Shown: positions 5,132-20,352 of the stretch, in pieces
How the letters are laid out: each line of letters starts with the position of its first letter
Position numbering within the stretch: the stretch's first letter is position 1
From: Sphingobium amiense
GTDB taxonomy: Bacteria > Pseudomonadota > Alphaproteobacteria > Sphingomonadales > Sphingomonadaceae
Assembly: GCF_003967075.1 (NCBI RefSeq)
Contig: NZ_AP018664.1
Location: 1,674,001-1,738,000, forward strand
Direction: 5' to 3'
Length of the DNA: 64,000 nt
Position numbers and translations under genes: made by a program
The notes under the pieces: model-generated
Databases searched by the model: none
What the model saw: only the letters and a program-made list of their open reading frames with translations
Told to the model about the DNA's origin: nothing

Positions 5132-5206
5132 GGCCCCTTCGTCTAGCGGTCAGGACGCGGCCCTCTCACGGCTGAAACACGGGTTCGATTCCCGTAGGGG
5201 TCACCA
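5132..5206 (+). tRNA. tRNA-Glu (CTC anticodon)
   Basis: 75 nt including an encoded CCA. The acceptor arm GGCCCCT pairs with AGGGGTC (one G-T), the D-arm is CGTCTAGCGGTCAGGACG, the anticodon loop is CCCTCTCACG with CTC read as anticodon for glutamate, and the T-arm is CGGGTTCGATTCCCG. Its last 16 bases are repeated at 20337-20352, showing that an integrating element used this gene as its attachment site and restored the 3' end on insertion, so the tRNA stays functional. Confidence 0.96.
5191..5206 (+). repeat. attL core, 16-bp direct repeat at tRNA-Glu 3' end
   Basis: CCCGTAGGGGTCACCA covers the T-arm 3' strand, acceptor 3' strand and CCA of tRNA-Glu. The same 16 bases occur at 20337-20352. 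The base before and after each copy differs, so the identity block is exactly 16 bp. Confidence 0.93.
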
Positions 5207-5370
5207 AAATCCTCTCCCAGAGGGTTCCAGATGATGCCATAACTGGCTGATTTCTGCGGTTTTCTTGTGGTATAGGTATCCCATGCGGAGCGGCTTCGTG
5301 CCACCGGATACCACCATCCTGATGGTATATCTGATGGTAGCGCGGTCCTCCCCTTGCCGGAGATACCATC

Positions 5371-6603
5371 ATGGCGCTTACCGCTGTCGCGATCAAAAAT
5401 GCCAAGGGCCGCGAAAAGCCCTACAAACTCACCGATAGTGACGGGCTGTTCCTCTATGTCACCCCCAATGGCGGTCGCTACTGGCGGATGAACTATCGCT
5501 ACCTTGGCAAGCAGAAGACGCTGGCGTTCGGGGTCTATCCCGACACCGGCCTTGCCGAAGCCCGCGAGCAGCGCGACGCGGCCCGCAAGGTTCTGGCGCG
5601 CGGCGATGATCCCGCCGAACAGATCAAGCTGGAAAAGGTTGCGGCGGCTGTCGCGGCGTCCAACAGCTTCAAGGCGGTAGCCGACGAATGGCTTGTGAAG
5701 GTCGAGCGTGAGGGTCGCTCCGGCGTCACCATGAAGAAGCTCCGCTGGCTGCTGGACTTCATCAACGAATCCATCGGCAAGCGCCCCGTCGCCTCCATCT
5801 CCGCGCAGGAACTGTTGGTGATGCTCCGCAAGATGGAGGGTAAGGGCCGCTACGAGACGGCCAAGCGCCTACGCAGCACATGCAGCCAGATATTCCGCTA
5901 CGCCATCGCCACGGCTCGGGCCGAGCGCGATGTCGCCGCCGATCTTCGCGGCGCGCTCATCGCGCCCCAGCCCGTCCATCGCGCCGCGATCACGAACGCT
6001 AACGAGGCGGGCGGCCTACTGCGCGCCATCGAGGCGTTCGAGGGTTTTGCCAACACCAAAGCAGCGTTGCGCTTGCTCCCGCATGTGTTCGTGCGTCCGG
6101 GCGAACTGCGCTATGCTGAATGGGCCGACTTCGATTTCGACGAGGCGCTTTGGACCATCCCGAAGCACAAGACTAAGATGCGCCGCGCCCACAGTATCCC
6201 ACTGTCCGCCCAGGCGCTCGCCATCCTCAAGACCATCGAGCATGACGCGGGCTACAGCTCCTATCTGTTTCCGTCGTTACGTTCTGTGGATCGGCCCATG
6301 TCGGAGAACACCATCAACGCGGCGCTGCGGCGCATGGGCTTCGCCCAGGACGAGATGACCGGCCACGGCTTCCGGGCGATGGCGGCGACGCTCCTGAACG
6401 AAATGGGCCTATGGCATCCTGACGCGATCGAACGGCAACTTGCCCATTGCGACAACAACGCCGTGCGCCGTGCCTACACGCGGGGCGAATATTGGGACGA
6501 GCGCGTGCGGATGATGCAGCACTGGTCCGACCATCTCGACTTCCTGCGTGATGGCGCGAAAGTCATAAAGGGCGATTTCAAGAAGGCAAAAGCCGGGGAG
6601 TAA
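5371..6603 (+). CDS. Tyrosine-type site-specific integrase, P4-like
   Basis: 410 aa. The N-terminal DUF4102 arm-binding domain (ALTAVAIKNAKGREKPYKLTD then DGLFLYVTPNGGRYW) is followed by a core-binding region and the catalytic domain. The visible catalytic set is Arg in VRPGELRYAEW, HGFR near residue 335, the LAHCDNNAVRRAYTRGEY block carrying the second His and the Tyr nucleophile. The ATG at 5371 has GGAG eight bases upstream. It lies 165 bp from tRNA-Glu in the standard position for this family, which integrates into tRNA 3' ends; it should catalyse recombination between the 16-bp repeats. Octamers GATGGTAT near both ends may be arm sites. Confidence 0.96.
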   Translation: MALTAVAIKNAKGREKPYKLTDSDGLFLYVTPNGGRYWRMNYRYLGKQKTLAFGVYPDTGLAEAREQRDAARKVLARGDDPAEQIKLEKVAAAVAASNSFKAVADEWLVKVEREGRSGVTMKKLRWLLDFINESIGKRPVASISAQELLVMLRKMEGKGRYETAKRLRSTCSQIFRYAIATARAERDVAADLRGALIAPQPVHRAAITNANEAGGLLRAIEAFEGFANTKAALRLLPHVFVRPGELRYAEWADFDFDEALWTIPKHKTKMRRAHSIPLSAQALAILKTIEHDAGYSSYLFPSLRSVDRPMSENTINAALRRMGFAQDEMTGHGFRAMAATLLNEMGLWHPDAIERQLAHCDNNAVRRAYTRGEYWDERVRMMQHWSDHLDFLRDGAKVIKGDFKKAKAGE

Positions 6604-6615
6604 CCCGGCTTTCCC

Positions 6616-6819
6616 TCATTCGGCGCGATCTTCGCGGTAACGCAGGGGATCGGCTATCCAGCGATTGACGGCGGATTCGTACCAGCCGGTTCCGTGCGTG
6701 CTGATCGGCACCCGCCGGGGGAACGTGCCCTCTTTGATCTTGCGATACATGGTGGAGCGGGACAAGCCGGTGCGGGCGAGAACAGTTTTCAGGCGGATGA
6801 TACGATCAGGGCAGTTCAT
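6616..6819 (-). CDS. AlpA family phage/island transcriptional regulator
   Basis: 67 aa from ATG at 6819 (GGAAG nine bases upstream); an upstream TTG at 6849 would extend it by ten residues. RLKTVLARTGLSRSTMYRKI is a MerR/AlpA-like helix-turn-helix, followed by the usual GTFPRRVPI and WYESAVNRWI segments. AlpA proteins act on the integrase promoter or as excision-directionality factors in P4-like elements. It is convergent with the integrase gene, 12 bp from the integrase stop. Family call firm; whether it acts as excisionase or activator is not decided by sequence. Confidence 0.9.
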   Translation of the reverse strand: MNCPDRIIRLKTVLARTGLSRSTMYRKIKEGTFPRRVPISTHGTGWYESAVNRWIADPLRYREDRAE

Positions 6820-7338
6820 GGGGACTTTCTTCCATTCCTTGGCTATCAATGGCTCCCCCTGAGCCGAGTTTTGGTGATTACAATTTTCCGCTCAAGTGCC
6901 TTTGCGAGGACATCCGGTGCCAATCGCAGCCACGGCAGTAAATACAGGCGGACGGCGGCAGACGGCTGTAAACGGATGCGGCTGGCGGTGCACGGCGACG
7001 CCGGGTAGCGCTTGGCGGAGCGCAATTTCACATTTCCGTCGCAACTGTGACGCGCACGTCACGTTGTTCGACACTATCGACGCAAAGTTGCGCTGCTGCT
7101 GATCAGATTGCGCGCCCGACTCGCGCACCATTGCAGACCTACCTTCCGATGGTCTGCCCGCTGAATGTCAGTTTGCCCCGCGCCATGCCAAAGGCGCAAG
7201 CCGCAGGCCATGTCAGTGCCGGTTTCGGTATATTACTGGCAGTTGCAGACTTTATTGCCCCTTGACATCCGCATCCCGCAAACCTTTTGAGAGGCGAAAA
7301 TCCTGCTTCCGGCTCGCCCCTTCTTTGCTATTGGGCAA
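6820..7338. promoter_or_regulatory. Gene-free control region between alpA and the sigma factor gene
   Basis: About 520 bp with no convincing coding frame. It holds two inverted repeats: GTGACG-CGCA-CGTCAC at 7047-7062, flanked by AAC and GTT, and GCAGACC/GGTCTGC at 7133-7139 and 7151-7157. A TTGACA hexamer at 7262-7267 lies 72 bp before the sigma gene, but I see no good -10 at the right distance. The region must carry the alpA promoter (leftward) and the sigma factor promoter (rightward). Confidence 0.45.
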
Positions 7339-7848
7339 ATGGGGGTGCCGATGCTGGCCGAACGCGATCAATTGCTCAGCGAAGTGTATGATGAACTGCG
7401 CGCGGCGGCCTCACGTATGCTGCACCGTGACGCACCCATGCTTACCTTGCAACCCACTGAACTGGTGAACGAAGCTGCACTGCGGATCATCAGGCTTGAG
7501 CAGATGAGTTGGAACGACCGCCAGCATTTCTTCGCCACCGGCGCACGGATCATGCGGCAAGCCATGATGGATGCAATCAAAAGCCGCAAGCGAGCCAAAC
7601 GCCAGGCACCGAGTATCTTTTTTGAAGACGACCCCGGGAATAGCGGGGTCGATGTCGAGATGCTGGACGCGGCACTCTCAAAGCTGGAAACGATCTCACC
7701 CGAACTTGCAAGAATCGTTGAGATGCGGTTTTTCGTTGGTCTTAAACCTGACGAAATCGCTGTTGTGCTGGAAAGTTCAGAATCGACAATCAAACGGCGC
7801 TGGCAGACGGCGCGGCTATGGTTGGCCGACGAATTGGCTGATAATTAA
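7339..7848 (+). CDS. ECF-type sigma factor of the kinase-linked class (ECF43 / TIGR02999-like)
   Basis: 169 aa. Region 2 covers about residues 8-75 and region 4 about 105-165, with PDEIAVVLESSESTIKRRW as the -35 reading helix-turn-helix. In ordinary ECF factors the region 2.2 helix begins with an acidic DAED motif that contacts core polymerase; here the equivalent place reads TLQPTELVNEAALR, with Thr40 where the acidic residues belong. That is the signature of sigma factors activated by Thr phosphorylation by a neighbouring Ser/Thr kinase (EcfK/PknS in Xanthomonas, EcfP/PknT in Vibrio). The gene is convergent with such a kinase and their stops overlap by four bases. No anti-sigma gene is nearby. 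The phosphorylation is inferred. Confidence 0.88.
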   Translation: MGVPMLAERDQLLSEVYDELRAAASRMLHRDAPMLTLQPTELVNEAALRIIRLEQMSWNDRQHFFATGARIMRQAMMDAIKSRKRAKRQAPSIFFEDDPGNSGVDVEMLDAALSKLETISPELARIVEMRFFVGLKPDEIAVVLESSESTIKRRWQTARLWLADELADN

Positions 7849-10238
7849 CCGCAGAGCCGGGTCGCTACTTTCGCAGCTTCGGGAACGTCCTTGGCGGCAT
7901 CGCGCGCGCCGAGGTTTCCAGCGGCCCGGATCGCAGTCCATTGCCGAACAGCCTCCTGGGCCGCATTGCACGCTGCACGATGGCTTCCTGCACGGGCTAG
8001 CACTTCGGCATGGTTAGGCAGTGCGACTGCGAGGTCGCGATTTCGTTGCGGATCGTGGGGTACGCGCGCTAGTCGTTCGCGTCGCAGCGCGATACTGGCG
8101 TTGGAGGCTGCGACCGCTTCGGCCATGCGCCCCATATCCGAAAGCACGTTTGCTTCTTGACCGTAGAGGATCAGCAAGCGCTTTTCGATGTTAGCATCTG
8201 GGCCGAATGCCAGCACGCGTTGAAGGGCCACAATCCCTTCGCGTGCTTCACGCAGGGCGGCTTCATTCTGCCCGTTAATATCGCCAAGCGTCCCGCTGAT
8301 GTTGAATTTGGCTTCGCCGAACTTGTCGGTCCATACCAGCGATGTTCCCTTGGCAAGCTCGGCGCGGATGATGGCCTCCGCCTCGCGATAGGGAACAAGT
8401 GATCCAGGCTTGTCGCCTGCGTAGTAGATAGCATCGCCGAGACGACCCAGCAGGTTCACTTCTAGCAGGCGGGCATCGCGCCGGTTTACACGCTCAAACC
8501 TAACGGCCCGCAGTCGGGAAAGCGCAGAGAACAGCACGGGGACTGCGGCGGCCGGGCGATTTTCGCTCCAGATCATATCATAGGCGCGGCTCTTTTCAGT
8601 GACCAGAAAGCCGATCAGCGCGCTCTGTCTGGCCGGGTCGATGGCAAGGGCTTGCCGGAAATAGCCAGCCGCACGGTTATTCAGTTGACGCGATTTGCCG
8701 TTGTCAGCCGCCATCGCCCATCGACCGGCAGTGACCCACCCTAGTTCCTCAAGCACTTCTGGATTGCCCGGCTGCTCCTTTGCCAGAACCGCTAGCAAAG
8801 CTTCAGCTTGATCGAGTGATTTCGCGGCCTGATCGGGATGGCCGAGGTTCGATGTGCCAGACAATCCTTGCAAACTGGCCAGTCGCCGATAGCCCTGCGC
8901 GGTATCGAGCCGAAGGTCGGCTGGCGCATCCCTAACGCTGCCCAGCCGTTCGAGATACTGCCCCGAAACCTCCGCAAGCCGCGCACGGGCGACAACCGTT
9001 CCCGGTGCATCGCTCAGATCATCACTGAGCTCGGTGAGCATGAATTTGGCAAGGTGGCGTACCTCGACAAACCTTGCGTCCGCTTCGGCGCGGGCACGTT
9101 CGGCCCGGACATACTGGACCGTGCTGATTGCTGTCGCCGCAACCAGCGCAAGTGCGGCCAGCCCGGTCAGCGTCAGACCCTTCCGGTGCCGCTGGATGAA
9201 ACGGCCCACGACATAACGCCATCCCGCATCGTGTCGCGCCGCCAGCGGCACAAAGGCGCGCATACGACGGATGTCAGAGAGCAAAGCGGCAACGTCGGGG
9301 TAACGATCCTCGGGCTTTTCAGCCAGTGTGCGGGCGGCAATCGCGCCCAGATCGCCGTCAAGCTGCCCTACCGGCAGGCGTGTGCCGGGAATGAAATCAC
9401 CGTCCTCTCCCGGCACCTTGCAACCGAGCATCCCCAGCAGCAACACGCCCAAGCTAAACACGTCACTGGTAATCGTCGGTGCCACACCCACCGCGCGTTC
9501 CGGTGCGGCATAGCCCTTGGTCAGCGGATAGGGATCGCCTGTCTCGTCGGTGTCAATCACCGAAATCAAACGGGCGATACCGAAATCAAGCAGATGCACC
9601 GCGCCGTCCGCGCTCATCAGCACGTTCGATGGTTTGATGTCGGCATGGATCACCAGACTGCGATGGGCAAAGGCCACCGCCTCACACACCGCCTCGAACG
9701 CATCGAGCCGTGCGGTCCGGTCCACCCCGGCCTTGCACAGCGCTTCGGTGATTGGGAGGCCATCGACATAGTCCATCGCCAGCCACGGACGGCCGTCGGC
9801 ATCGCCGCCATCGAGGATACGCACGATGCCCGGATGACGCAGCCTGGCGAGAATCCGGCGCTCCTCGGCAAATCGGGCTTTGGCGCGGTCACTTGCCAGA
9901 TCGCCCCGGATCAGCTTGATCGCCACCTGCTGCTGGAACACACCGTCATCACGCTCGGCCTTGACCACCGCCCCCATCCCGCCGCGCGCGATCTCGGCGG
10001 TGATTTTGTATGGCCCGATCCGTTTGGGAATCGCCTCAATCACGCCCAACGGCTTGATGAGGCTTTCGGTGGGAAGCAGTCGGAAATTTGTATGCTCATG
10101 TGCAAGCAGTTCTTCGACGCGCGCGCGTAAGCCTGCATCCTTGCCACAACGACCTATTACAAATGCGCGCCTTGCCTCGGCGTTATCAATGCCCAGTGCG
10201 GCTTCAACAACCTTGAGTGCTAATGAATCGACTGACAC
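7845..10238 (-). CDS. Transmembrane eukaryotic-like Ser/Thr protein kinase with C-terminal repeat region
   Basis: 797 aa from GTG at 10238, which has AGGA seven bases upstream; a TTG at 10268 is the alternative. The kinase domain spans about residues 75-330: ARGGMGAVVKA glycine loop, catalytic Lys in VAIKLI (108), HADIKPSN (198-205), DFG (218-220), GYAAPE (242-247). The catalytic loop has HAD instead of HRD. One membrane helix follows at about 354-376 (GLTLTGLAALALVAATA). The last 400 residues are Ala/Leu/Arg-rich helical pairs resembling TPR repeats and should be periplasmic, hence a sensor. The nearby sigma factor is the expected substrate. It is the last gene of the minus-strand cluster starting with the autotransporter. 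Confidence 0.92.
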   Translation of the reverse strand: MSVDSLALKVVEAALGIDNAEARRAFVIGRCGKDAGLRARVEELLAHEHTNFRLLPTESLIKPLGVIEAIPKRIGPYKITAEIARGGMGAVVKAERDDGVFQQQVAIKLIRGDLASDRAKARFAEERRILARLRHPGIVRILDGGDADGRPWLAMDYVDGLPITEALCKAGVDRTARLDAFEAVCEAVAFAHRSLVIHADIKPSNVLMSADGAVHLLDFGIARLISVIDTDETGDPYPLTKGYAAPERAVGVAPTITSDVFSLGVLLLGMLGCKVPGEDGDFIPGTRLPVGQLDGDLGAIAARTLAEKPEDRYPDVAALLSDIRRMRAFVPLAARHDAGWRYVVGRFIQRHRKGLTLTGLAALALVAATAISTVQYVRAERARAEADARFVEVRHLAKFMLTELSDDLSDAPGTVVARARLAEVSGQYLERLGSVRDAPADLRLDTAQGYRRLASLQGLSGTSNLGHPDQAAKSLDQAEALLAVLAKEQPGNPEVLEELGWVTAGRWAMAADNGKSRQLNNRAAGYFRQALAIDPARQSALIGFLVTEKSRAYDMIWSENRPAAAVPVLFSALSRLRAVRFERVNRRDARLLEVNLLGRLGDAIYYAGDKPGSLVPYREAEAIIRAELAKGTSLVWTDKFGEAKFNISGTLGDINGQNEAALREAREGIVALQRVLAFGPDANIEKRLLILYGQEANVLSDMGRMAEAVAASNASIALRRERLARVPHDPQRNRDLAVALPNHAEVLARAGSHRAACNAAQEAVRQWTAIRAAGNLGARDAAKDVPEAAKVATRLCG

Positions 10239-10319
10239 ACAGGCATCCTGAATTGATTTTTCTACCAAATACCACGAATGACATCGAAAGCCGATTGCGT
10301 CGGCGTCATTGCTCCCGGA

Positions 10320-11045
10320 CTATCCATTCCCGGGATCAACCTCTGAATTCGTCAGAGGGCGATAGGTGCGAACGTTGATCTTGTCCTTGAGTTCGTAAAG
10401 CTGTTCGGCGATGGAGCGATATTGGCTAGACAGGTTCTCGGCAAAGCCCTGCAAAACTGCCGTCATTTGATGCCGCAGGCTGATCAGGACCTGCGCTTCA
10501 TCGGCGGTCAACGCGATAACGGTGTCCTTCTGACCACTGGCCTCGAACAGCCGCAAACGATTGAGATAGGGCAGCATTTGTTCCTGAGTTTCGAGCAGAT
10601 CGTGCATTGTCGTTTCGAGAAGCGGATAATATAGCGCTCTTATCGTAGCGATGGTTTTGAGCAGTTCGATTTCGAGGTTGGGATCGCACAGGAAGATCGA
10701 CGCCTTGACTGCGGCAAGCCGCACATTGCCGAACAGTTTGAGATCGGATTTGTGAAAATCGGCTGGCTCGAAGTCCTTCGATTCGGCCTGCATCGTCAGA
10801 TCGCCGATGCCGCTTTGCAGGAAATATTCCCACTTCTCGACCGCGATGCGAAACGCGACCAGTTCGTTCTGTTCATGCGAGCGCAGTCCCGCCCTGATGG
10901 CGAGCGAGGCAGCGATGCGTTGCTCGGCAACAGCGAACCGGCTTTTCAGCATGCTTTCAAACCAATTCCGGCCAACATAGGCGAGCACGGCCAGAGCCAA
11001 GATCCACATCGGTGTCGATGACAAGGTGGTGACGAGTTCCGTCAC
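10320..11045 (-). CDS. Hypothetical membrane-anchored protein, 241 aa
   Basis: Starts with GTG at 11045 and a weak ribosome site. One N-terminal membrane helix (about residues 11-28, PMWILALAVLAYVGRNWF) is followed by about 210 residues of mostly helical, charged sequence with heptad-like Leu spacing, ending hydrophilic. No family recognised. It lies 81 bp before the kinase on the same strand, so the two are probably cotranscribed. A role as partner of the kinase (signal input or scaffold) is only suggested by position. Confidence 0.72.
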   Translation of the reverse strand: MTELVTTLSSTPMWILALAVLAYVGRNWFESMLKSRFAVAEQRIAASLAIRAGLRSHEQNELVAFRIAVEKWEYFLQSGIGDLTMQAESKDFEPADFHKSDLKLFGNVRLAAVKASIFLCDPNLEIELLKTIATIRALYYPLLETTMHDLLETQEQMLPYLNRLRLFEASGQKDTVIALTADEAQVLISLRHQMTAVLQGFAENLSSQYRSIAEQLYELKDKINVRTYRPLTNSEVDPGNG

Positions 11046-11128
11046 CGACCTATAGGGCCTTGGAAGTCAAAGAACGGCGGGAAGGTTGCTACTTCGGCCA
11101 TCGACTGATCCCGCGACGATAGCATGGG

Positions 11129-11329
11129 TCAGCTGTAATGCTGGCCAAAGGAGTGGCCACATCGACAATCGCCAGTACCGTCGTTGAAGAAGCTTCCGCA
11201 CCCGCAACATGTACAGGCTCCATATCCTGCGGTTTCCGGGATCTGATTTTTTCTCGCCTCAGCGAACCTGTAGCTGTTCGGGGCAATCATCTGACTGTCC
11301 TCGAACTTTTCATGCATAGCTTTCCACAT
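11129..11329 (-). CDS. Small Cys-rich protein, possible metal-binding
   Basis: 66 aa from ATG at 11329 with an AAGGGAAAGCA ribosome site. The C-terminal half has Cys39, Cys41, Cys42, Cys44, Cys55, Cys57, His59 and His64, a spacing compatible with a zinc ribbon or other metal site (ACTCCGCG then DCRCGH). The N-terminal half is polar. No signal peptide. No family recognised. It lies inside the autotransporter-to-kinase cluster. The clean start and Cys pattern argue that it is real. Confidence 0.6.
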   Translation of the reverse strand: MWKAMHEKFEDSQMIAPNSYRFAEARKNQIPETAGYGACTCCGCGSFFNDGTGDCRCGHSFGQHYS

Positions 11330-11423
11330 TGCTTTCCCTTTCGAGATTCCTCGCTGCGAACGATGGCGGCAGAGACACCAAATTGGTAAATGCGTTCACG
11401 CCGCCACGGCTCGACCGACCCGT

Positions 11424-11657
11424 TTAACCGAGATCGCAGTTGATCCGATCGGGCGAGGCATAACCACCTGACACCGAAACTTGATTTGAGCTTTCAATGC
11501 TTCCGCACCATGGTCGCACGGGATAGGTTCCGTCGGCATCGGGCAGAGTGACGGTATAGTATGAGTTACTGTTGAAAGGCCCAACAGTCTCGGAAGCAAC
11601 ATCGATATAGACCGATCCGTCAATTCCGCCAGTCCATGAAACATATACGCTTGCCAT
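11424..11657 (-). CDS. Small beta-rich hypothetical protein, 77 aa
   Basis: ATG at 11657 is preceded by a strong AAGGAG site, the best in the cluster, which suggests high translation. The sequence alternates short hydrophobic and polar residues (VYVSWTGG, VYIDVASETV, YYTVTLPDADG, NQVSVSGGY), typical of a small beta-sandwich or beta-barrel, with two Cys (in PWCGS and NCDLG) that could form a disulfide. There is no signal peptide. No family recognised. It follows the 230-aa gene in the cluster. Could be a carbohydrate- or surface-binding module; that is a guess. Confidence 0.65.
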   Translation of the reverse strand: MASVYVSWTGGIDGSVYIDVASETVGPFNSNSYYTVTLPDADGTYPVRPWCGSIESSNQVSVSGGYASPDRINCDLG

Positions 11658-11690
11658 CTGATTATCTCCTTTTTCTTGGTTAATCGTGCG

Positions 11691-12383
11691 CTACGCATTA
11701 TCTGTTTGCCTCGCGTTGCTTGAATGCCTCGGTTCTCTATCGCCCCCAAAGGGCGGGCTTGGGAGGAACGGCAGCCCACCAGAAGGCGGCATCGTCGTCG
11801 ATTGTGATGCTAGGCCGGGCCAACCCGTCATAGGACCGGGCGTACCCACGTCTCCGCCCTGCTGGGGAAGGTCAGGGATTACAGGCAGGCCCGCGTTCAA
11901 GGCGGCGAAGAATGCTTCCGGTTCCAAGCCTGGCCCCGGCATACCGGCGGCGACGGTGTTCTTGATTGCCGCTTGCGCCTGTACCGCGTCGTCCGCGAAG
12001 CGTTTGAGATAAGCCTGAAAGCCTGGTAAACCGAGCTTTGCCAGAACGTCAGCATCGGCTTGGTAGGCTTGGCAGAGCGTAACCAGATGGCCAATCATGT
12101 AACCTTGCGCTTGAAAAAGTCTGAGTGGCAGCATCTGACCCAGCGTGCGGCAGGATTGCGCCTGCGCGAACAAGCCCCCCATTTGCGCAGCGCAGGGCAA
12201 ATAGTCCGCGTCAAATTTTGCCGCAATTTCGGACTGAACCACTTTCAGCTCCGCTTCACGGCCCGTCTTAGCTGCATCGGTGGCATCGAGCGGGAGTGGG
12301 GCTAAAGTCTTGGTGGAGTGATCAAAACTCCCTCGGGAAACCCGTGCATCGACCGTTCCGGCCATGAAATCTTCAAAAGACAT
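11691..12383 (-). CDS. Hypothetical protein with Pro/Gly-rich tail, 230 aa
   Basis: ATG at 12383 with AAGGGA eight bases upstream, 18 bp after the autotransporter stop, so almost surely cotranscribed with it. Residues 1-140 are soluble and mostly helical (Cys in LPCAAQ, SCRTLG, LCQAY). From about residue 145 the sequence becomes Pro/Gly-rich (MPGPGLEPEAFF, PDLPQQGGDVGTPGP, GLPFLPSPPFGG), a low-complexity tail. No signal peptide or known domain. Position suggests a product linked to the autotransporter, either accessory or substrate-like. Function unknown. Confidence 0.68.
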   Translation of the reverse strand: MSFEDFMAGTVDARVSRGSFDHSTKTLAPLPLDATDAAKTGREAELKVVQSEIAAKFDADYLPCAAQMGGLFAQAQSCRTLGQMLPLRLFQAQGYMIGHLVTLCQAYQADADVLAKLGLPGFQAYLKRFADDAVQAQAAIKNTVAAGMPGPGLEPEAFFAALNAGLPVIPDLPQQGGDVGTPGPMTGWPGLASQSTTMPPSGGLPFLPSPPFGGDREPRHSSNARQTDNA

Positions 12384-12401
12384 GGGTTGGTTCCCTTGAG
12401 A

Positions 12402-15400
12402 CTAGAATTGGACCCGCACACCGCCCGAAATGGCGTGCCCGCGCACGCTATTCCCCCGGTCAAGCCGCCCTTCAATAAAGCCCGAAAGATGGCCACGCTC
12501 ATCGCGCAAGCTCAGCCCCGCGACATATTGGCCAGTTGAACGGTAGCCGGTGGCATTGAGGTTGTAGCCGATGACGGTGCCCGCCGCGTCCGCTGAGAGG
12601 ATCGTAGCAGTCTCGCTGTTCGACATATTCTTTACCCAATATGCCCCGGCATAGGGTTCGGCGAACAGTCCTGAGCCGACCTTGCCCGCCCATGACAATC
12701 GCGCGCCGAGCCGGGCGACGCTATTATTGTCGCTACCGGGAGCCAGCCGTGTGAAATTATCGATGGCAAAGGTATCGATGCGGCTGTTGCTCCAGCTCAA
12801 CGCCGCACGCGGGGTAAGTGCAAAGCCGTGTCCAAGCGGCAGGCGGTATGACGCCGCTACCGCGCCCGCCCATGCACGACCTTTGGTTCTGGTCGCTGCG
12901 GCAGTGCCAAACAGCACAGCATTGGTCACATCGAACCGCCGCCATTCGCGCCGCACATTGGCTTCGATGGTCAGCCTGTCGCCTGTCAACGCAGCATAGG
13001 CTCCCAGAAACGGCACATTCACCTTGATCCGTGTCGCGGGCTGGGTGGCGTCGGCACTATAGGTGCCACCCATGATGCCCAGATGCACGGACCAGCCCCT
13101 ACCGCCAAGATCGCTCCAACCGAGATCGGCTCCACCCTGGATCGAACGATGATCGAGTTCGAGCCGGTTGGTCGCGCTGGCAAGCTGCGTCGTGCTGTCG
13201 GAGATGACGGTCGCCAGCGTCTGGCCGAGACTACCCGAGGTGCCGCGTATCCATAGACCGAGGTGCGGCTTGCCTGAAGCAGCACCCTCGCGGCCAGTGA
13301 CATAGGGTAGCACGGAGTCATCAAGTGCCGCCGCCGCTGTTGCCGCCGTTACATGTAGTCCGCCCAGCCCGGTGAGCAGCGGATTGAACGCCTGCAAAAT
13401 ACCGAACTGGTTAGCGTTGGTCTTGCTCACCCCGAAGCTCTCACGGAACACGCCCGCGTCGGCAAAGGAAGTGGAGGTGAACGCCCCCGCCGCCGCACCG
13501 CCGGTGACAGTAATCAGCGGCAGGAATCCGCCCGCGATCCGCCCCTGCGCCAGCCGGTTGACGGTGACGGCGGTGGTGCCGGTCGCCGTGCCCGTGATGG
13601 TCAGCGTATCGGCACGGGCGGTTGCTGTGCTGGCATCAAGGAATATCTGCCCGCCGCCGGTGTAGTTTCCGGTGATTGTGATGGAATTGTTCCCGGCGAC
13701 CCCGTCCGCCGCGTTGATGATGCCGGTGTTGGCCAATGCGCCCGAAAACGACGAGTTTCCACTGCCTACATTCCAACGGCCTGAGTTGGTGAACAGCGAG
13801 GCGCTGACCGACGATCCGGTGACGTTGATCCCGCCGGTCATCGTGCCGGTTGCGCCATTGGTGATGCGGAATGCAGTGCCTGCGGTCGATCCGGCGACGG
13901 CGTTGGTGCCGCCAGTGAGGGTGCCGGTGTTGGTGACGACGGCAGTTCCCGTTCCACCCGCGATCAGCCTTATTCCGGTCGTGGTGCCCGAAACCGTGCC
14001 CGCATTGTTCGCCGTCAATACACCGGCCAGTTGCAGGCCCGCCACAGTTGGGGTGATATTGAGCTGGACAATCGCGCCGGTGCTGAAGTCGGAATTGGGA
14101 TCGGAATAGTCTGCGGCGGTGGTGAGATCGATTCCGGTGGCACCAGCAATGCTGCCGGTGGTCGCAACGGTGACCGTGAAATCGTTGCGCGTGCCGCGTC
14201 CCCACACTCCGGCGTTACCCGCGCTGATCGTGCCATTAATGTCTGCGGTCGCCGCGCCGGTCGAATAGCCGCTGAACAGCCGGATACCGGTGCCCTGAGC
14301 CGCACTGACTGTTTTGCCTGCCCCGACTGTTACCGCAAGGGTGGCGGTGTTGTTGTCAAGCCGGGTTGCCTGCTCCGCAGCAGACAGGGGGACAAACGAC
14401 CCTACTGCGGTGGAAATGCCCACGCCACTGTTGATGAGCAGATCGATGGCGTTGCCATTGGCGACGGTGATGTTGCCGCCGCCCGATGTCCGGTTGACCG
14501 AGACCGCGCCGCTTCCGCTGGTAGCAGCGTCAATCGATGCTGTCCCCAATGTTGCAGTATTATAGTTCCTCAGATCAACTCCGATGGTCTGGGTGAGATC
14601 GATCGTGACGTTGCCTGGTCCTTTCTTGAGCGTGTTCGCAGCAATGACGGTTGCCGCAGTAAGGTTCGGACCGAACGAATTGTCGGAGATCAAGCCGGTC
14701 CCGGTGCCGATGATCGATACGTTCCCGCGCGTGTCTCCTGTAGCAATCAGTCCACCGAAGATGCTGGCGCTGTTCAGGCCGATCCGGATATCGCCGGTGT
14801 TGGTTCCTCCCGAAACCTGAACTATCGCGGCGATGCGTGGCCGACTTGCGGCACTCCCAATATTGCCATTGACCGTTATCGTGGTCGCCGCGTTACGAGT
14901 GACGCCTGTCGGGGTGTAGACATTCGCGTTGATACCGAAGCTGGTCGTCAGGATGCTGCCGTTGTTGACCACGCTGACATCGCCGGTGCCGCGCTGCGTG
15001 ATGGCGATGCCGCCCAGTCCGTTGGAAAGGTCGAGGATCGATCCGTTGTTGGTGATCTGAAACGCGGAAGCTCCCGCACTGGTATCGTCGATGGTATTAG
15101 GATTGCCGCTGGATGCGTTGATACCGCCAACCAATGTCCCGTTGGTTGTTATCCGCGTGTCTGCACCACCGATGGCTTGGGTGCGGATTGCGTTAAAGCC
15201 GTAATTCAATCCGCCCAGTGAGTAGGAAGCACCCCGGATCGTCGAGGTCGCGCCTTGTGCGACATCAATCAGCCCGGTCGATGTCGTAGTGGATGCGTCG
15301 AGTCCGTAAGAACTGGCCGAGATCAGGTCGCCGTTGATCCGCGCAGTGGCTCCGTTACCGCCGCCACGCAAGGTCAGCGCGGTATAGGCAATCAGCGCCT

Positions 15401-15695
15401 GGCCCGGCCCCAGCGACGCCGCTTGGCTGGCGTTGATCGACGATCCCGCATCAATCGTCACGTTCGCGCCGTTGGTGGCATCACCGTTGACAGTCAGCCC
15501 GGTAGTGGCTGCCTGCGTCTCGCTATTTTGGAACCGCACAGAGCGCTTGCCGGTAATCGTCGCGGTCGTATTCGCCCCTGTCGCGCCGTCGCAGATTACG
15601 TCGGGCTGTGTCAGATCGCAATTCGCCCATGCCGTTCCCGGCACCATCAACGCTATCACAGCCGCACTCAGCCGTAGCTTTGAATGAATTGTCAT
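12402..15695 (-). CDS. Autotransporter (type V secretion) with beta-helical passenger
   Basis: 1097 aa from ATG at 15695 with GGAGA just upstream; an in-frame extension to 15953 lacks support. Residues 1-24 are a signal peptide (LRLSAAVIALMVPGTAWA). The passenger is long, Gly/Thr/Asn-rich with repeated short strands (ITNNGSIL, VVNNGSIL, VTNTGTLTGG), typical of a beta-helix. The last 270 residues form an autotransporter beta-barrel beginning after a Gly-rich linker (PHLGLWIRGTSG) and ending in the aromatic terminus GGVRVQF. It should display or release its passenger at the cell surface. It is the first gene of the minus-strand cluster that ends with the kinase, and the only obvious secreted product on the island. 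Confidence 0.92.
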   Translation of the reverse strand: MTIHSKLRLSAAVIALMVPGTAWANCDLTQPDVICDGATGANTTATITGKRSVRFQNSETQAATTGLTVNGDATNGANVTIDAGSSINASQAASLGPGQALIAYTALTLRGGGNGATARINGDLISASSYGLDASTTTSTGLIDVAQGATSTIRGASYSLGGLNYGFNAIRTQAIGGADTRITTNGTLVGGINASSGNPNTIDDTSAGASAFQITNNGSILDLSNGLGGIAITQRGTGDVSVVNNGSILTTSFGINANVYTPTGVTRNAATTITVNGNIGSAASRPRIAAIVQVSGGTNTGDIRIGLNSASIFGGLIATGDTRGNVSIIGTGTGLISDNSFGPNLTAATVIAANTLKKGPGNVTIDLTQTIGVDLRNYNTATLGTASIDAATSGSGAVSVNRTSGGGNITVANGNAIDLLINSGVGISTAVGSFVPLSAAEQATRLDNNTATLAVTVGAGKTVSAAQGTGIRLFSGYSTGAATADINGTISAGNAGVWGRGTRNDFTVTVATTGSIAGATGIDLTTAADYSDPNSDFSTGAIVQLNITPTVAGLQLAGVLTANNAGTVSGTTTGIRLIAGGTGTAVVTNTGTLTGGTNAVAGSTAGTAFRITNGATGTMTGGINVTGSSVSASLFTNSGRWNVGSGNSSFSGALANTGIINAADGVAGNNSITITGNYTGGGQIFLDASTATARADTLTITGTATGTTAVTVNRLAQGRIAGGFLPLITVTGGAAAGAFTSTSFADAGVFRESFGVSKTNANQFGILQAFNPLLTGLGGLHVTAATAAAALDDSVLPYVTGREGAASGKPHLGLWIRGTSGSLGQTLATVISDSTTQLASATNRLELDHRSIQGGADLGWSDLGGRGWSVHLGIMGGTYSADATQPATRIKVNVPFLGAYAALTGDRLTIEANVRREWRRFDVTNAVLFGTAAATRTKGRAWAGAVAASYRLPLGHGFALTPRAALSWSNSRIDTFAIDNFTRLAPGSDNNSVARLGARLSWAGKVGSGLFAEPYAGAYWVKNMSNSETATILSADAAGTVIGYNLNATGYRSTGQYVAGLSLRDERGHLSGFIEGRLDRGNSVRGHAISGGVRVQF

Positions 15696-15725
15696 GCCGG
15701 TCTCCATGCACAGGAACGCGAAGCA

Positions 15726-15772
15726 AATTTCGGTCTTTGTTATGCTAAGGCGACATCGGCGCGAATTTCGGT
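15726..15772 (-). promoter_or_regulatory. Possible ECF-type promoter and repeats upstream of the autotransporter
   Basis: On the minus strand TGAACC is followed after about 15 bases by a GTCG sequence, resembling ECF promoters (GAAC-type -35, GTC-type -10). ACCGAAATT occurs twice (15734-15726 and 15772-15764), 38 bp apart, and TCGGT-GA-ACCGA is a small palindrome there. Position is right for the autotransporter promoter. Pattern match only. Confidence 0.3.
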
Positions 15773-15825
15773 TCACCGATTTGAAAATATTTTTTGAGAT
15801 GGCAGGAAATGCGAGAGGATTTTCG

Positions 15826-16143
15826 TTATCTCTCGCTCTCGAATGCCCGTTTCCCTTTCCGTTTCCACAACACGAGCGCCTGTTCACGGTCCTCACTGCG
15901 CAGCTTGGCCGCAACGGTGAGGAACGCGCCGTAGAGCGCGGCGCGATCGTCATCGGTGAGATCGACCAGTCCGGCTTTCACGACGAGGCCGCCCAGTTCG
16001 ATCAGTTGACGCGTGCGTTCGCGGCGTTGCACGGCCCATTCGCGCATGTCGGTTCGCGCCTTCTGTGCTTCAAGCCGATACCGCGCCGCTGTCATTCGGC
16101 GTAGTGCTGCCTTTGTCGCGATCAGTTCCCGCAGTTCGACCAC
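15826..16143 (-). CDS. traD: Conjugal transfer protein TraD (mobilisation accessory)
   Basis: 105 aa from GTG at 16143 (AAGG eight bases upstream); ATG at 16095 is an alternative. The conserved TraD block ERTRQLIELGGLVVKAGLVD, followed by LTDDDRAALYGAFL and a WKRKGKRAFE end, matches the small TraD proteins of the Ti-plasmid-type Dtr module (PF06412), which help the relaxase at oriT. It overlaps the end of traC in another frame by about 70 bp, so the exact start is uncertain. Transcribed away from traA, as in Ti-type mobilisation regions. Confidence 0.8.
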   Translation of the reverse strand: MVELRELIATKAALRRMTAARYRLEAQKARTDMREWAVQRRERTRQLIELGGLVVKAGLVDLTDDDRAALYGAFLTVAAKLRSEDREQALVLWKRKGKRAFESER

Positions 16144-16375
16144 GCGCGTTGCCTTGAAAGAAGGTAGCCCCGCGCTTGCGCCAGCTCTCCTTTCGTGCGG
16201 CATCGTCGGTTTCGGCAATGACCAGCAACGCACCCGCCAGTGTTTCCGCGTCAGTGGCATCGGCTCGGCAAGCAATCACCAGTTCGCCGAGTTGCTGGAC
16301 GCGGCGTTCTTTGAGTTGACGTGCCTTGTCGGCCAGCGCCTTCAGTTCCGAATCGAAGTCCCTGGGTTTACGCAT
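16070..16375 (-). CDS. traC: Conjugal transfer protein TraC (mobilisation accessory)
   Basis: 101 aa from ATG at 16375 with GGAG eight bases upstream. The N-terminus MRKPRDFDSELKALADKARQ and VQQLGELVIACRAD are the TraC hallmark of Ti/MOBQ modules, where TraC binds oriT with the relaxase. The C-terminal 30 residues, after RKRGATFFQG, are low-complexity and overlap traD. Divergent from traA across the oriT-like site. Confidence 0.82.
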   Translation of the reverse strand: MRKPRDFDSELKALADKARQLKERRVQQLGELVIACRADATDAETLAGALLVIAETDDAARKESWRKRGATFFQGNARGRTAGTDRDKGSTTPNDSGAVSA

Positions 16376-16442
16376 CGCAAGTCTCCGTTGAGAGTTGATG
16401 CGCCCATGATAATAGTGTGCCGCGCGTAATGCTGTAGAGTCG

Positions 16443-16522
16443 TCGGGACGTTCTGGAACCAGATAGTCCCGAGCAGGATTTTATCATGGGAGGGCGCGCT
16501 TATACGTCGTTCCGACGTGCCC
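16443..16522 (-). other. Putative oriT of the element (MOBQ type)
   Basis: The traC-traA gap holds TCGGGAC/GTCCCGA (16443-16449, 16466-16472) and the perfect hairpin ACGTCG-TTC-CGACGT (16504-16518). Read on the minus strand the hairpin is followed directly by TATAAGCGCGCCCTCCC (down to 16488). This is the arrangement of RSF1010/Ti-type origins: inverted repeat, then a nick region with the core GCGCCCTCC. The nick would be on the minus strand near 16490. Assignment is from remembered family consensus, not alignment. Confidence 0.72.
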
Positions 16523-16547
16523 GTTGTAGTGTAGATGGATTGCCATC

Positions 16548-19505
16548 ATGGCAATCTTCCATTTCAGCGCAAAGGTCATCGGGCGGGCGAGCGGACGCAG
16601 CGCCGTTGCCGCCGCTGCCTATCGCGCAGGCGAACGGCTGCACGATGACCGGCTCGACCGCGATCACGACTTCACCAACAAGTCGGGCGTCGTTCATTCC
16701 GAAATTCTCCTGCCGGACAATGCGCCCGAGGAATTCGCCGACCGCGAGAAGCTGTGGAACGCGGTCGAGGCGGCGGAGGTTCGCAAGGACGCCCAGCTTG
16801 CCCGCGAAGTCGAGTTCGCCATTCCGCGCGAGATGACACAGGCACAGGGCATCGAACTGGCGCGCGATTTTGCAGGTCAGGAGTTCGTCAATCGCGGCAT
16901 GATCGCCGACCTCAATGTTCACTGGGATATTGGCGCGGACGGCATGGCGAAGCCGCACGCCCATGTCATGTTGACGATGCGCGAAGTGGACGAGGAGGGT
17001 TTCGGCGCGAAGGTCCGCGACTGGAACAGGACCGAGCTTGTCGAGCAATGGCGCGAACGCTGGGCCGATCATGTCAATGGACGGCTTGCCGAACTCGACA
17101 TTGACGCGCGCGTCGATCACCGCAGTTTGCAAGCACAGGGCATCGGGCTTGAACCGCAGGACAAGATTGGTCCCGCTGCATCACGCATGGGCGAGCGTGG
17201 ACTTGAGTCCGAGCGCATCGAGGATCACCGCGCCATCGCGCAGCGGAACGGCGAACGGATCATCGCGGAACCGTGTGTCGCCCTGGACGCAATCACCCAC
17301 CAGCAGGCGACATTCACGCACCGTGACATGGCAATGTTCGTGCATAGCCACACGGACGGGAAAGAGCAGTTCGACCGGGCATTGAGCGCCGTCCGTGCGT
17401 CCCCCGATCTTGTCGAGCTTGGCAAGGACGGACGCGGCGAAGATCGGTTCACCAGCCGCGAGATGATCGAGACCGAGCAGCGGTTACAGCGCGCCAGCGA
17501 GTTGATGGCCGAGCGGGAACGGCATCACGTGGACGGGAAGGACCGAGCCGCCGCATTGGCGCAGGTGAAAGGGTGCGGGCTGGCGCTGACCGGCGAGCAA
17601 CGCGCGGCGTTCGAGCATGTAGCGGACGGGCGCGGCCTCAGCGTGGTTGTGGGATACGCCGGAACGGGCAAGAGCGCGATGCTGGGCGTTGCGCGCGAGG
17701 CATGGGAGCGCGCCGGATTCGAAGTGCGCGGCGCGGCGCTGTCCGGCATCGCGGCGGAGGGGTTGGAGAATGGTTCCCGCATCGCCTCGCGCACTATCGC
17801 CAGCATGGAACATGGCTGGGCGCAGGGGCGCGACCTTTTGACTTCGCGTGACGTGCTGGTGATCGACGAGGCGGGCATGGTCGGCACGCGCCAGATGGAG
17901 CGCGTTCTCTCCCATGCCGTCGACGCGGGCGCAAAGGTCGTGCTGGTCGGCGACCCGCAGCAGTTGCAGGCCATCGAGGCGGGCGCGGCGTTCCGCGCGA
18001 TCCATGAGCGGCATGGCGGCGTCGAGATCACCCAGGTTCGCCGCCAGCATGAGGGCTGGCAGCAGGATGCCACCCGGCAACTTGCTACAGGGCGCACGGG
18101 AGAAGCGATCCGGGCCTATGCCGATCATGGCATGGTCCATGCCGCCGACACGCGCGAGGCAGCGCGCAGCGAGCTTGTCGAGCGGTGGGATCGCGAACGC
18201 ATCGCCGCGCCGGATCAGACCCGCATCATCCTTACCCACACCAATGACGAAGTGCGCGAACTCAATGAAGCGGCGCGCGACCGGATGCACACGAGCAATG
18301 CGCTGGGCGATGACGTGCTGGTGAAGGCAGAGCCCGGCAACCGCATGTTCGCCAGTGGCGACCGCATCATGTTCCTGCGCAACGAGCGCAGCCTTGAGGT
18401 CAAGAACGGCACGCTGGGCACGGTCGAAAAGGTCAGCCCAGAGCATATCGCCGTCCGCACCGATGACGGGCGCAGCGTCGCGTTCGACACCAAGCACTAT
18501 GCCCATGTCGATCACGGCTATGCCGCCACGATCCACAAGGCGCAGGGTATGACCGTTGACCGCGCCCATGTGCTGGCAACGCCGGGCATGGACCGCCACG
18601 GCGCATATGTCGGCATGTCGCGTCACCGTGAAGGTATGGCGCTCCACTATGGCCGCGACGACTTCAAGGACGAATCCCGCCTTGTCCGCACCCTGTCCCG
18701 CGAGCGGGCCAAGGACATGGCGAGCGATTACGAGCGCCGCGACCCAGCGCAGCAGTTCGCCGAACGGCGCGGCATCACCTTCCGCGAGCGTATAGCGGAA
18801 ATCATCCAGAAGATTCCCGAACGCGCGCGCGGAATGTTCGATGGGTTCCGGCCCAAAGCGCAAGCCCCCGAGCGCGAACCGGGCATGTTCGCCAACTTCC
18901 GTCCGCAACCCCACGGGCCAGAAGGAGAGAAGGAACAGGCGCTTGTCCGCCAAGCCCGCGCGCCCGATCCGCGCCGCGCGGTGGAGCGCTACGCCCGCGC
19001 TGCCGCCGACATAACGCGGATGCAGGGCCAGGGTCTCCCGGTGCTTCCGCACCAGCGCGAAGCGCTGGACAAGGCGCGCGCGGGAGTGGAGGCGATCCGG
19101 CCCCATGCCGCCGCCGATCTCGGCGCGGCGTTCCAGCGCCAGCCCGAGCTTGTCCACGAAGCCGCCGAAGGGCGCGGCCAGGCCGCCATGCGCGCGATGC
19201 AGCTTGAAGCTGAAATCCGTGCCGATCCCTTCCAGCGCGCCGACAGGTTCGTCGAAGGCTGGCAGCAGCTCCAGCGTCACCGCGAGGACTTGCAGCGCGA
19301 CGGCGACTTCCGAGGTGCGAAGCGTGTCGCGCAGGAAATGCACGGCATGGCGAAAGGCCTCGAACGCGATGCGCAGATGGAATCGGTCCTGCGCGGGCGC
19401 ACCCGTGAACTCGGCATCGACATGGAAATGGGCCGCAGCCTTGTCCGCGATCTCGCGGATTCCGTGCCGTTCGATCACGGGCGCAACCTTGGCATGAGCA
19501 GATAG
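16548..19505 (+). CDS. traA: Ti-type conjugative relaxase-helicase TraA
   Basis: 985 aa. The N-terminal MobA/MobL relaxase domain has AIFHFSAKVIGRASGRSAVA at the start, conserved YR in AAYRAGE, and the metal-binding His pair KPHAHVML near residue 137. A central RecD/TraI-like helicase follows with Walker A GYAGTGKSAML (about 367-377) and Walker B VLVIDEAGM, and a superfamily 1 C-terminal motif HGYAATIHKAQGMT. The last 250 residues are helical and charged. TraA nicks oriT, stays bound to the 5' end and unwinds the transferred strand. The length is slightly below Ti TraA (about 1100 aa). It starts 25 bp from the oriT-like site and is followed by the DUF6118 gene. Confidence 0.95.
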   Translation: MAIFHFSAKVIGRASGRSAVAAAAYRAGERLHDDRLDRDHDFTNKSGVVHSEILLPDNAPEEFADREKLWNAVEAAEVRKDAQLAREVEFAIPREMTQAQGIELARDFAGQEFVNRGMIADLNVHWDIGADGMAKPHAHVMLTMREVDEEGFGAKVRDWNRTELVEQWRERWADHVNGRLAELDIDARVDHRSLQAQGIGLEPQDKIGPAASRMGERGLESERIEDHRAIAQRNGERIIAEPCVALDAITHQQATFTHRDMAMFVHSHTDGKEQFDRALSAVRASPDLVELGKDGRGEDRFTSREMIETEQRLQRASELMAERERHHVDGKDRAAALAQVKGCGLALTGEQRAAFEHVADGRGLSVVVGYAGTGKSAMLGVAREAWERAGFEVRGAALSGIAAEGLENGSRIASRTIASMEHGWAQGRDLLTSRDVLVIDEAGMVGTRQMERVLSHAVDAGAKVVLVGDPQQLQAIEAGAAFRAIHERHGGVEITQVRRQHEGWQQDATRQLATGRTGEAIRAYADHGMVHAADTREAARSELVERWDRERIAAPDQTRIILTHTNDEVRELNEAARDRMHTSNALGDDVLVKAEPGNRMFASGDRIMFLRNERSLEVKNGTLGTVEKVSPEHIAVRTDDGRSVAFDTKHYAHVDHGYAATIHKAQGMTVDRAHVLATPGMDRHGAYVGMSRHREGMALHYGRDDFKDESRLVRTLSRERAKDMASDYERRDPAQQFAERRGITFRERIAEIIQKIPERARGMFDGFRPKAQAPEREPGMFANFRPQPHGPEGEKEQALVRQARAPDPRRAVERYARAAADITRMQGQGLPVLPHQREALDKARAGVEAIRPHAAADLGAAFQRQPELVHEAAEGRGQAAMRAMQLEAEIRADPFQRADRFVEGWQQLQRHREDLQRDGDFRGAKRVAQEMHGMAKGLERDAQMESVLRGRTRELGIDMEMGRSLVRDLADSVPFDHGRNLGMSR

Positions 19506-19514
19506 GAAAAAGAT

Positions 19515-20210
19515 ATGGAAGACAGATCACTGCCCTTGGATTCCGAACAGGAACCCGATCCGGCGACACAGGCGTTCGCACGGCTTGAAGGCGAAATGGC
19601 GCTGGTCCGCCGCGCGGTCCAGAATCTGGCGACCGAGAAGGCGGAAATCGACATTCCCGATTACAGCAACACCCTTGGCGAGATGGCGAAGCGGCTGGTC
19701 GCCATCGATGAGCATCCCGCCATGCAGATGACCCCAGAGGATATGGCGGCACGGATACAGGCCGCCGCCGCAAAAGCGCGGCGCGATGACCACGTCGCCC
19801 TTTCCGATGCAAAGCAGCAACATATCGAGTCATCCCGCGCCTTGCGGGCGTTGGCCGGAGACGTTGCCAGCTTCAACGAGCAACGCCGCCGCCTCAAATG
19901 GGCGGCAGGCGGCGGCTTGCTCGCCGGATGCCTGCTATGGGCTGTCCTTCCCGGCTTCATCGCGCGCATCCTCCCGGCAAGCTGGCATCTGCCCGAACGC
20001 ATCGCCGCGCGCACCGTGCGCGAGCCTACGCTATGGGAAGCTGGAACCCGGATGATGCGGGCCGATAGCCCGGAGGCATGGCAAGCCATATCCGATGCCG
20101 CCGATATACGCCGGGACAACCGTGAGGCCATCGATGCTTGCGAGCAGCAGGCCACAGTGGCCAAACAGCCAGTGCGATGCACGATCAGGGTGCAGAACCG
20201 ACAGCCGTGA
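19515..20210 (+). CDS. DUF6118 family protein
   Basis: 231 aa, ATG at 19515 with an AGGAAAAAG site, 9 bp after traA. The N-terminal 120 residues are acidic and helical (QAFARLEGEMALVRRAVQNL), then one membrane segment (about 135-155, WAAGGGLLAGCLLWAVLPGF) and a C-terminal domain ending in several Cys (IDACEQQ, PVRCTI). This architecture and its place just behind traA are typical of DUF6118 in alphaproteobacterial mobile elements. Role unknown; possibly linked to transfer. Confidence 0.82.
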   Translation: MEDRSLPLDSEQEPDPATQAFARLEGEMALVRRAVQNLATEKAEIDIPDYSNTLGEMAKRLVAIDEHPAMQMTPEDMAARIQAAAAKARRDDHVALSDAKQQHIESSRALRALAGDVASFNEQRRRLKWAAGGGLLAGCLLWAVLPGFIARILPASWHLPERIAARTVREPTLWEAGTRMMRADSPEAWQAISDAADIRRDNREAIDACEQQATVAKQPVRCTIRVQNRQP

Positions 20211-20336: not shown

Positions 20337-20352
20337 CCCGTAGGGGTCACCA
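20337..20352 (+). repeat. attR core, 16-bp direct repeat
   Basis: CCCGTAGGGGTCACCA, identical to 5191-5206 in tRNA-Glu. It ends 2 bp before the glgX stop codon region (20355), so before insertion the tRNA gene was the immediate convergent neighbour of glgX. Confidence 0.93.

Follow-up and report, generated by a model that had tools for sequence, protein, structure and literature searches.

A 64,000-nucleotide stretch of the Sphingobium amiense genome (contig NZ_AP018664.1, positions 1,674,001 to 1,738,000; hereafter the window) contains, at positions 5191–20352, a 15.1-kb integrative mobilizable element in a tRNA-Glu gene, with the genes for an extracytoplasmic function (ECF) sigma factor, a Hanks-type Ser/Thr kinase and a classical autotransporter (AT) as its cargo. 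We propose that this island carries a kinase-gated surface-protein switch, in which the kinase would activate the sigma factor and the sigma factor would transcribe the neighbouring autotransporter gene; from sequence comparisons, we put the probability of this reading at about two in three. The mobile island anatomy, the mobility signature, a shared promoter-like element with its rarity and the co-occurrence of the genes elsewhere are the observed part of this reading. Its central features are:

7339..7848, plus strand: ECF sigma factor of the TIGR02999 family (153.4 bits, cut-off 126.15; PF07638, 126 bits), with threonine 40 (T40) in a QPTE motif.
7845..10268, minus strand: Hanks-type Ser/Thr kinase with one hydrophobic (transmembrane) segment and a large C-terminal part (PF00069, 107.8 bits, residues 87–286).
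12402..15695, minus strand: classical autotransporter AT, 1097 residues, with a C-terminal barrel and F as its last residue (TIGR01414, 76.3 bits, cut-off 16, residues 670–1097).
15749..15775, minus strand: 27-bp promoter-like element TGAACCGAAATTCGCGCCGATGTCGCC; an A/T-rich stretch precedes it, and 53 nt separate it from the chosen AT start.

In the proposed mechanism, the transmembrane kinase would sense an extracellular signal and phosphorylate the adjoining sigma factor, with T40 of region 2.2 as the probable site, by analogy with the sigma factors EcfK and EcfP. The active sigma factor would then bind the element at 15749–15775, as its conservation suggests, and transcribe AT. Because the six minus-strand genes from AT to the kinase gene are closely spaced and no terminator-like site was found on that strand between them, read-through from AT may also raise kinase levels, giving a positive loop. 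The preliminary description of this DNA had the sigma factor driving the entire minus-strand cluster, kinase included. The autotransporter part of that proposal is supported by the common promoter-like element; the rest is not, and since the element was found only before the autotransporter, the kinase would come under the sigma factor by read-through alone.

The seven open reading frames (ORFs) of that description lie at the places and on the strands it gave, and its identification of sigma factor, kinase and autotransporter agrees with the matches to TIGR02999, PF00069 and TIGR01414. The sigma factor and kinase genes are convergent, their 3' ends overlapping by 4 bp. Translation of the kinase probably starts at a GTG near position 10238, where by eye its relatives start, giving about 797 residues. 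Its catalytic residues are recognizable in AIKL (116), HADIKPSN (208) and LDFGIA (227), and the K, D and D-F-G are kept in 66 or 67 of 67 aligned kinases; the candidate transmembrane helix is the most hydrophobic 19-mer, at residue 366 (Kyte-Doolittle mean 1.84). The catalytic loop (residues 208–215) reads HAD, not HRD, as it does in 14 of the 67 kinases; non-RD kinases are often under different regulation. A defence role, raised by matches to PADLOC kinase models, was set aside, these being taken as generic kinase-domain matches. In the case of AT, the longest open frame extends to 15953, and the ATG at 15695 was preferred because a signal-peptide-like stretch comes after it (MTIHSKLRLSAAVIALMVPGTAWA, which by eye resembles a Sec signal peptide). 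PF03797 gave no match in AT.

Four other loci, designated L079, L134, L080 and L061, group with the window both in a tree of 67 kinases (support 0.995) and in one of 70 sigma factors (support 0.998), the order within this clade being weakly supported. Sigma factor and kinase genes are convergent in all five members, and autotransporter and 27-bp element occur together in three of them. L079, from the host SJ20, is a related element (relaxase 90%, sigma factor 77.5% and kinase 65% identical to those of the window), in which the sigma–kinase pair lies between two autotransporters, AT1 and AT2, one on each side. The AT2 gene is split by an insertion sequence transposase gene (L079 13075–18203; PF13701, 554 bits). 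L134 comes from another genus and has the gene order of the window (sigma factor, kinase, autotransporter); its 1298-residue autotransporter, with a PATR repeat, is 60% identical to AT1 over 575 residues. Thus the expectation that the three genes would recur together in other genomes was confirmed by three copies of the cargo, by L079 and by L134. At promoter-binding columns, which were chosen by hand, the sigma factors of L079 and L134 are identical to that of the window at 27–28 of 30 and 30–33 of 36 positions, and that of L061 at 18 of 30 and 23 of 36. The conserved core of the putative switch is sigma factor, kinase, element and autotransporter.

The ungapped 27-bp element is common to AT (TGAACCGAAATTCGCGCCGATGTCGCC) and both L079 autotransporters (TGATCCGATTTCCGTTCCAATGACGCC and TGATCCGGTTTCCGCGCCGATGACGCC), each time with A/T-rich DNA ahead of it. 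It is composed of a -35-like TGAnCCG, a 13-bp spacer and a -10-like TGwCGCC, and it looks like an ECF promoter, a function we infer from its conservation. An exact pattern was written from these three sites and then fixed, so that those three match by construction. With up to three mismatches allowed, the window has one match against 0.05 expected. Across five genomes, the exact matches (one in the window's genome, one in that of IBVSS2 and two in that of SJ20) all precede these autotransporters and none was found elsewhere, including the genomes of L080 (G399) and L061 (G025); three mismatches add five further matches, two of them in the window's genome. Among 397 genomes the fixed pattern has two exact matches, before the window AT and in the L134 genome, and the idea of a common sphingomonad promoter was rejected on this count; one mismatch yields one additional match, inside an open frame in G311.

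A weight matrix was built from the three sites alone, and 35 newly fetched loci served as a held-out test. The sole match of at least 18 bits in these loci directly precedes the autotransporter of L134, the only clade member among them, whose kinase also matches best among the 35; the highest matrix score over 215,404 positions of unrelated DNA was 15.8. The distance from element to start is 50–53 nt in all four autotransporters, with starts set by eye at the signal peptide. Since the window AT is no more than a distant relative of the other autotransporters (49% over 141 residues) and DNA similarity between window and L079 ends at the TraD end, the window against the rest is the informative comparison. 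Against L134, the element is identical at 23 of 27 positions and the leader at 29 of 53 (gapped, so flattered); the corresponding values are 19 of 27 and 31 of 53 for AT1, and 21 of 27 and 30 of 53 for AT2.

The sigma family itself is widely distributed, TIGR02999 scoring above its cut-off in 29 of 199 genomes of the family and in 57 of 397 (which include the 199). Besides the window, 32 loci were fetched in a first search and 35 new ones in a second. In 30 of the 32, a kinase relative is encoded no more than 300 bp from the sigma factor gene (in L039 it is 5 kb away and L054 has none), and in 33 of the 35 no more than 600 bp from it; four pairs in the first set and six in the second are convergent, the remaining 26 and 27 being co-directional. 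The pairing, found in 63 of the 67 other loci, is therefore usual in this family and not novel alone. To its surroundings we applied a fixed rule, counting ORFs of at least 120 residues whose C-terminus is of the PEP-CTERM or outer-membrane-barrel type, both near the pair (within 2.5 kb) and far from it (4 kb or more; 2.5–4 kb excluded). ORF calling relied on simple criteria of length and codons, and class assignment on regular expressions, so single assignments may err. In the first set, 19 of 138 ORFs near the pair were of the surface-protein type, compared with 4 of 169 far from it (Fisher p = 1.5e-4; 15 of 31 kinase-bearing loci). The same rules gave 21 of 148 near and 5 of 165 far in the second set (p = 2.9e-4; 18 of 34 loci), which consists of other genomes of the same family, several of the same genera, and is a repeat rather than a phylogenetically independent sample. 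Chance co-location of the sigma–kinase pair and AT was rejected on the enrichment in the second set and the rarity of the pattern in the 397 genomes.

Eighteen neighbour proteins were submitted to Pfam. Classical autotransporter domains were recognized at L038, L049, L115, L125, L132, L137 and L139, YadA-type proteins at L047, L116 and L118, and PEP-CTERM proteins at L053 and L060; the remaining results comprised the PATR repeat of the L134 gene, a laminin-G protein (L050) and a TonB receptor (L122), while a 2213-residue protein of L052 had no Pfam match. Farther off in L134 there are a YadA-type protein and an Abi protein. Within 10 kb of pairs in the 29 genomes, TIGR01414 detected, besides the window, just G055; PF03797 later found more. 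A link to two-partner secretion, suspected from a cut-off frame in L061 that itself has no Pfam match, was dropped, as none of 37 ShlB matches lies within 10 kb of a TIGR02999 gene. Versions of the element were seen before the PEP-CTERM proteins of L053 (10144) and L060 (6303), before the 2213-residue protein of L052 (2568) and the laminin-G protein of L050 (7076), and, at L139 10400, inside the start of an autotransporter frame. These versions hint at a family-wide promoter type; at moderate scores, such matches do not exceed the shifted controls in number. On this evidence it is a tentative suggestion, at somewhat less than even odds, that many kinase-linked ECF sigma factors of the Sphingomonadaceae would be private switches, each pair acting mainly on an adjacent surface protein (a classical, trimeric or giant autotransporter, or a PEP-CTERM protein). 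The clade of the window would then be a mobile version whose sigma factor recognizes in essence a single promoter in each genome, the one upstream of its own autotransporter.

Several observations weigh against a dedicated sigma–autotransporter circuit in the window. L080 has no visible autotransporter within 10 kb on each side (ORFs by eye, a negative AT tblastn and two Pfam-tested proteins), which counts against an obligatory link, and its promoter-binding columns are similar too (24 of 30 and 29 of 36 identical to the window). In L061, a 3.8-kb contig, weaker sites precede the kinase gene and a divergent gene, and no such site was found before the window's own sigma factor or kinase gene. 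Matrix controls consisted of 16 versions with the spacer shifted by 1–8 bases either way. At 18 bits, the real spacing gave three matches in the first set and one in the second, and the 16 controls totalled two in each set; at 13.5 bits there was no clear excess (12 versus 4–14 in the first set, 12 versus 2–15 in the second). A deliberately looser pattern matched 22 times, in 21 of the 199 genomes (reversed control, one match); these comprise 6 of the 29 that have the sigma family and 15 of the 170 that lack it. Twenty of the 22 are not near a TIGR02999 gene; those within 10 kb of one are in the window and, in G149 (L053), before the PEP-CTERM gene beside the sigma factor gene. The longest open frames of AT, AT1 and the L134 gene begin upstream of or inside the element, which would be coding if those starts were real. 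Finally, AT1, AT2 and the L134 autotransporter are homologous (60–66%) and have leader sequence in common, and AT and AT1 occupy corresponding positions next to TraD in related elements, so that the element sites are partly one inheritance and not independent inventions.

These points bear on the alternative that the pair and AT are unrelated cargo, the pair acting elsewhere and the element being conserved for common descent, as a leader or for another regulator. Mobile elements do collect unrelated cargo, L080 keeps the pair with no visible autotransporter, and upstream DNA could have been inherited with homologous genes or with the shared position of AT and AT1. We nevertheless regard this alternative as unlikely: the window AT is distant from the others and yet the element is better kept than the leader, both exact sites in the 397 genomes precede an autotransporter beside a TIGR02999–kinase pair, and surface-protein genes are enriched beside pairs in both locus sets.

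Whether the kinase sets the activity of the sigma factor is a separate matter. T40 is conserved in all five sigma factors of the clade, each with QPT[ED] in the alignment. Of 70 aligned sigma factors of the family, 30 have T and 27 have G at position 40, and 59 have an acidic residue (D or E) at position 41. Since QPT[ED] is kept in all five clade members and T40 family-wide in 30 of 70, activation by T40 phosphorylation is plausible for the window's clade and cannot be read across the family. Sigma factors of the kinase-linked, ECF43-like kind are expected to have a conserved region 2.2 threonine and to have lost the acidic DxxD residues; the window sigma factor has the threonine but retains the acidic E41, as does EcfK of Xanthomonas citri. 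In the text available for that system (PMC13147305), the kinase PknS phosphorylates EcfK at T51 in region 2.2 and at linker residues. The sigma factor might instead control AT with its activity set otherwise, for example constitutively through the E41 charge, while the kinase acts on other proteins such as P241 and P230, encoded between AT and the kinase gene. The acidic residue beside T40, its wider conservation compared with T40 and, according to the same portion of PMC13147305, a functional EcfK T51A variant lend this idea some weight. However, a kinase gene lies near the sigma factor gene in nearly all other loci (the 30 of 32 and 33 of 35 given above), and EcfK, with the same charge pattern (QATE), is still phosphorylated by PknS in the available account. 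We consider activation independent of this kinase improbable, slightly more so than unrelated cargo, and retain the kinase-gated switch.

Between AT and the kinase gene lie four further genes:

10320..11045, minus strand: P241, with a hydrophobic N-terminus (sub-cut-off matches to one Pfam and two NCBIfam models).
11129..11329, minus strand: P66, a small Cys-rich protein (possible counterpart at L079 9757–9945).
11424..11657, minus strand: P77, a small protein with no family match.
11691..12383, minus strand: P230, with no family match.

At E 0.1, neither Pfam nor NCBIfam nor PADLOC gave a match to P230, P77 or P66. A single-sequence fold of P230 was helical with an unstructured tail, at low confidence (predicted local distance difference test score, pLDDT, 55). 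The preliminary description treated the whole cluster as one unit, which could not be upheld: P241, P230 and P77 were found neither in L079 nor in the second-set loci, L134 included, and were seen just in the island and its copies. Only P66 has a possible counterpart, a 62-residue protein in the same place in L079, with a score equalled by 4 of 2000 shuffles and a CxHx[FW]xxH motif common to both. When 397 genomes were searched and the best three candidates of each considered, the four proteins gave a single weak partial match, to P230, outside the window's genome. A single operon-level system that requires P230, P77, P66 and P241 as partners of AT would fit the close one-strand spacing, the lack of a terminator-like site noted above and the position of the P66 counterpart. 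Because L079 and L134 keep sigma factor, kinase and autotransporter and have no detectable P241, P230 or P77, and given that lone P230 match, we find such a system very improbable; P230, P77 and P241 look like island-specific passengers of the kinase-gated switch.

The island that carries these genes is further defined by the following features:

5132..5206, plus strand: tRNA-Glu (ctc), the integration site (ARAGORN and Rfam).
5191..5206, plus strand: left attachment repeat, the 3' end of tRNA-Glu (16-bp direct repeat with 20337–20352).
5371..6603, plus strand: tyrosine integrase (PF00589, PF22022, PF13356).
6616..6849, minus strand: AlpA-type regulator (PF05930, 60.5 bits).
15826..16375, minus strand: two overlapping TraD-like frames (PF06412).
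16548..19505, plus strand: MobA/MobL relaxase-helicase (PF03389, 250.9 bits; PF13604).
19515..20210, plus strand: DUF6118 protein (PF19613, 74.1 bits).
20337..20352, plus strand: right attachment repeat and island end (exact 16-bp copy of 5191–5206).

With an integrase, a tRNA target and flanking direct repeats all present, the earlier proposal of a mobile island is upheld, with its ends at 5191 and 20352. The island has a MobA/MobL relaxase, and no type IV secretion gene was recognized among its identified ORFs, in line with an integrative mobilizable element. Both overlapping TraD frames match PF06412, which may reflect a frameshift in the gene or its duplication; L079 has a comparable pair, by frames alone. 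Past the right repeat lies a gene of the glycogen-debranching type; DNA matching it is present in 35 of the 41 genomes of the genus, counting that of the window.

When the genome_contigs collection was scanned with the kinase, at least 80 candidate stretches emerged, and among the matches listed nine encode relatives. The whole cargo, again among the matches listed, occurs at 99–100% protein identity in three stretches (L076, L077 and L078), in assemblies named Sphingomonas or Proteobacteria. L076 and L077 are 99.96–99.99% identical to the window in DNA across 15.1 kb; L078, from IBVSS2, is 96.35% identical across 13.7 kb and its relaxase just 75%, so that the transfer module seems to have been swapped there. 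The left flank of the window had no match in the L076–L078 stretches examined (L076 stops at the tRNA), and the sequence past the right repeat differs among the three hosts read (window, IBVSS2 and SJ20). These near-identical copies in other assemblies may be taken as indirect evidence of excision or transfer of the island. Tandem tRNA-Glu genes (ctc, ttc) lie at the island end in L077 (15063–15242). Against plasmids, the island DNA gave a single 89-bp match, AT had three weak relatives, and no relatives of P230 or P241 were found. The best plasmid relative of the kinase, at 48%, is from Sphingopyxis; the gene table there, which is known to have gaps, shows no sigma factor or autotransporter annotated within 10 kb.

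Kinase-gated ECF regulation is already known, so the term 'undescribed system' used at first was too strong; the autotransporter link is the new evidence. As far as the available text of the two source papers goes, two kinase–sigma pairs with known outputs have been described. EcfK–PknS combines an ECF43 sigma factor with a Hanks-type kinase and controls type VI secretion, and EcfP of Vibrio parahaemolyticus is activated by PknT in the polymyxin response (PMC8999054). The window resembles the former in that an ECF sigma factor adjoins a transmembrane Hanks-type kinase and carries a Q-x-T-E motif (QATE in EcfK in the part of PMC13147305 available, QPTE here). It differs in its convergent genes, in a likely target that is an autotransporter rather than type VI secretion and in its location on a mobilizable element. 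With EcfP–PknT it shares the logic of a kinase-activated ECF sigma factor, as outlined in the accessible part of PMC8999054; the likely target differs, and the window sigma factor keeps E41, whereas EcfP is described in the accessible part of PMC13147305 as having no region 2.2 negative charges. AT itself is like type Va autotransporters, with a putatively secreted passenger and a C-terminal barrel (TIGR01414), and differs in its proposed control by a kinase-linked ECF sigma factor, for which no precedent was found in the literature searched. The island resembles tRNA-integrated MobA/MobL elements in its integrase by tRNA-Glu, AlpA, attachment repeats, relaxase and TraD, and differs in its signalling and surface-protein cargo. 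Nor did the literature searched (most subscription journals lay outside its scope) reveal an autotransporter serving as the dedicated target, a mobile version or a surface-protein link across the family, and the main text of neither PMC13147305 nor PMC8999054 contains 'autotransporter' or 'Sphingo'.

Because the candidate promoter is close to unique within the genome, a single reporter would suffice to test target, signal and phosphorylation site. Should the neighbourhood pattern hold, dozens of uncharacterized sphingomonad pairs would gain a testable target, the adjacent surface protein, and a mobile version such as the one proposed here would spread a ready-wired, signal-gated surface trait among strains.

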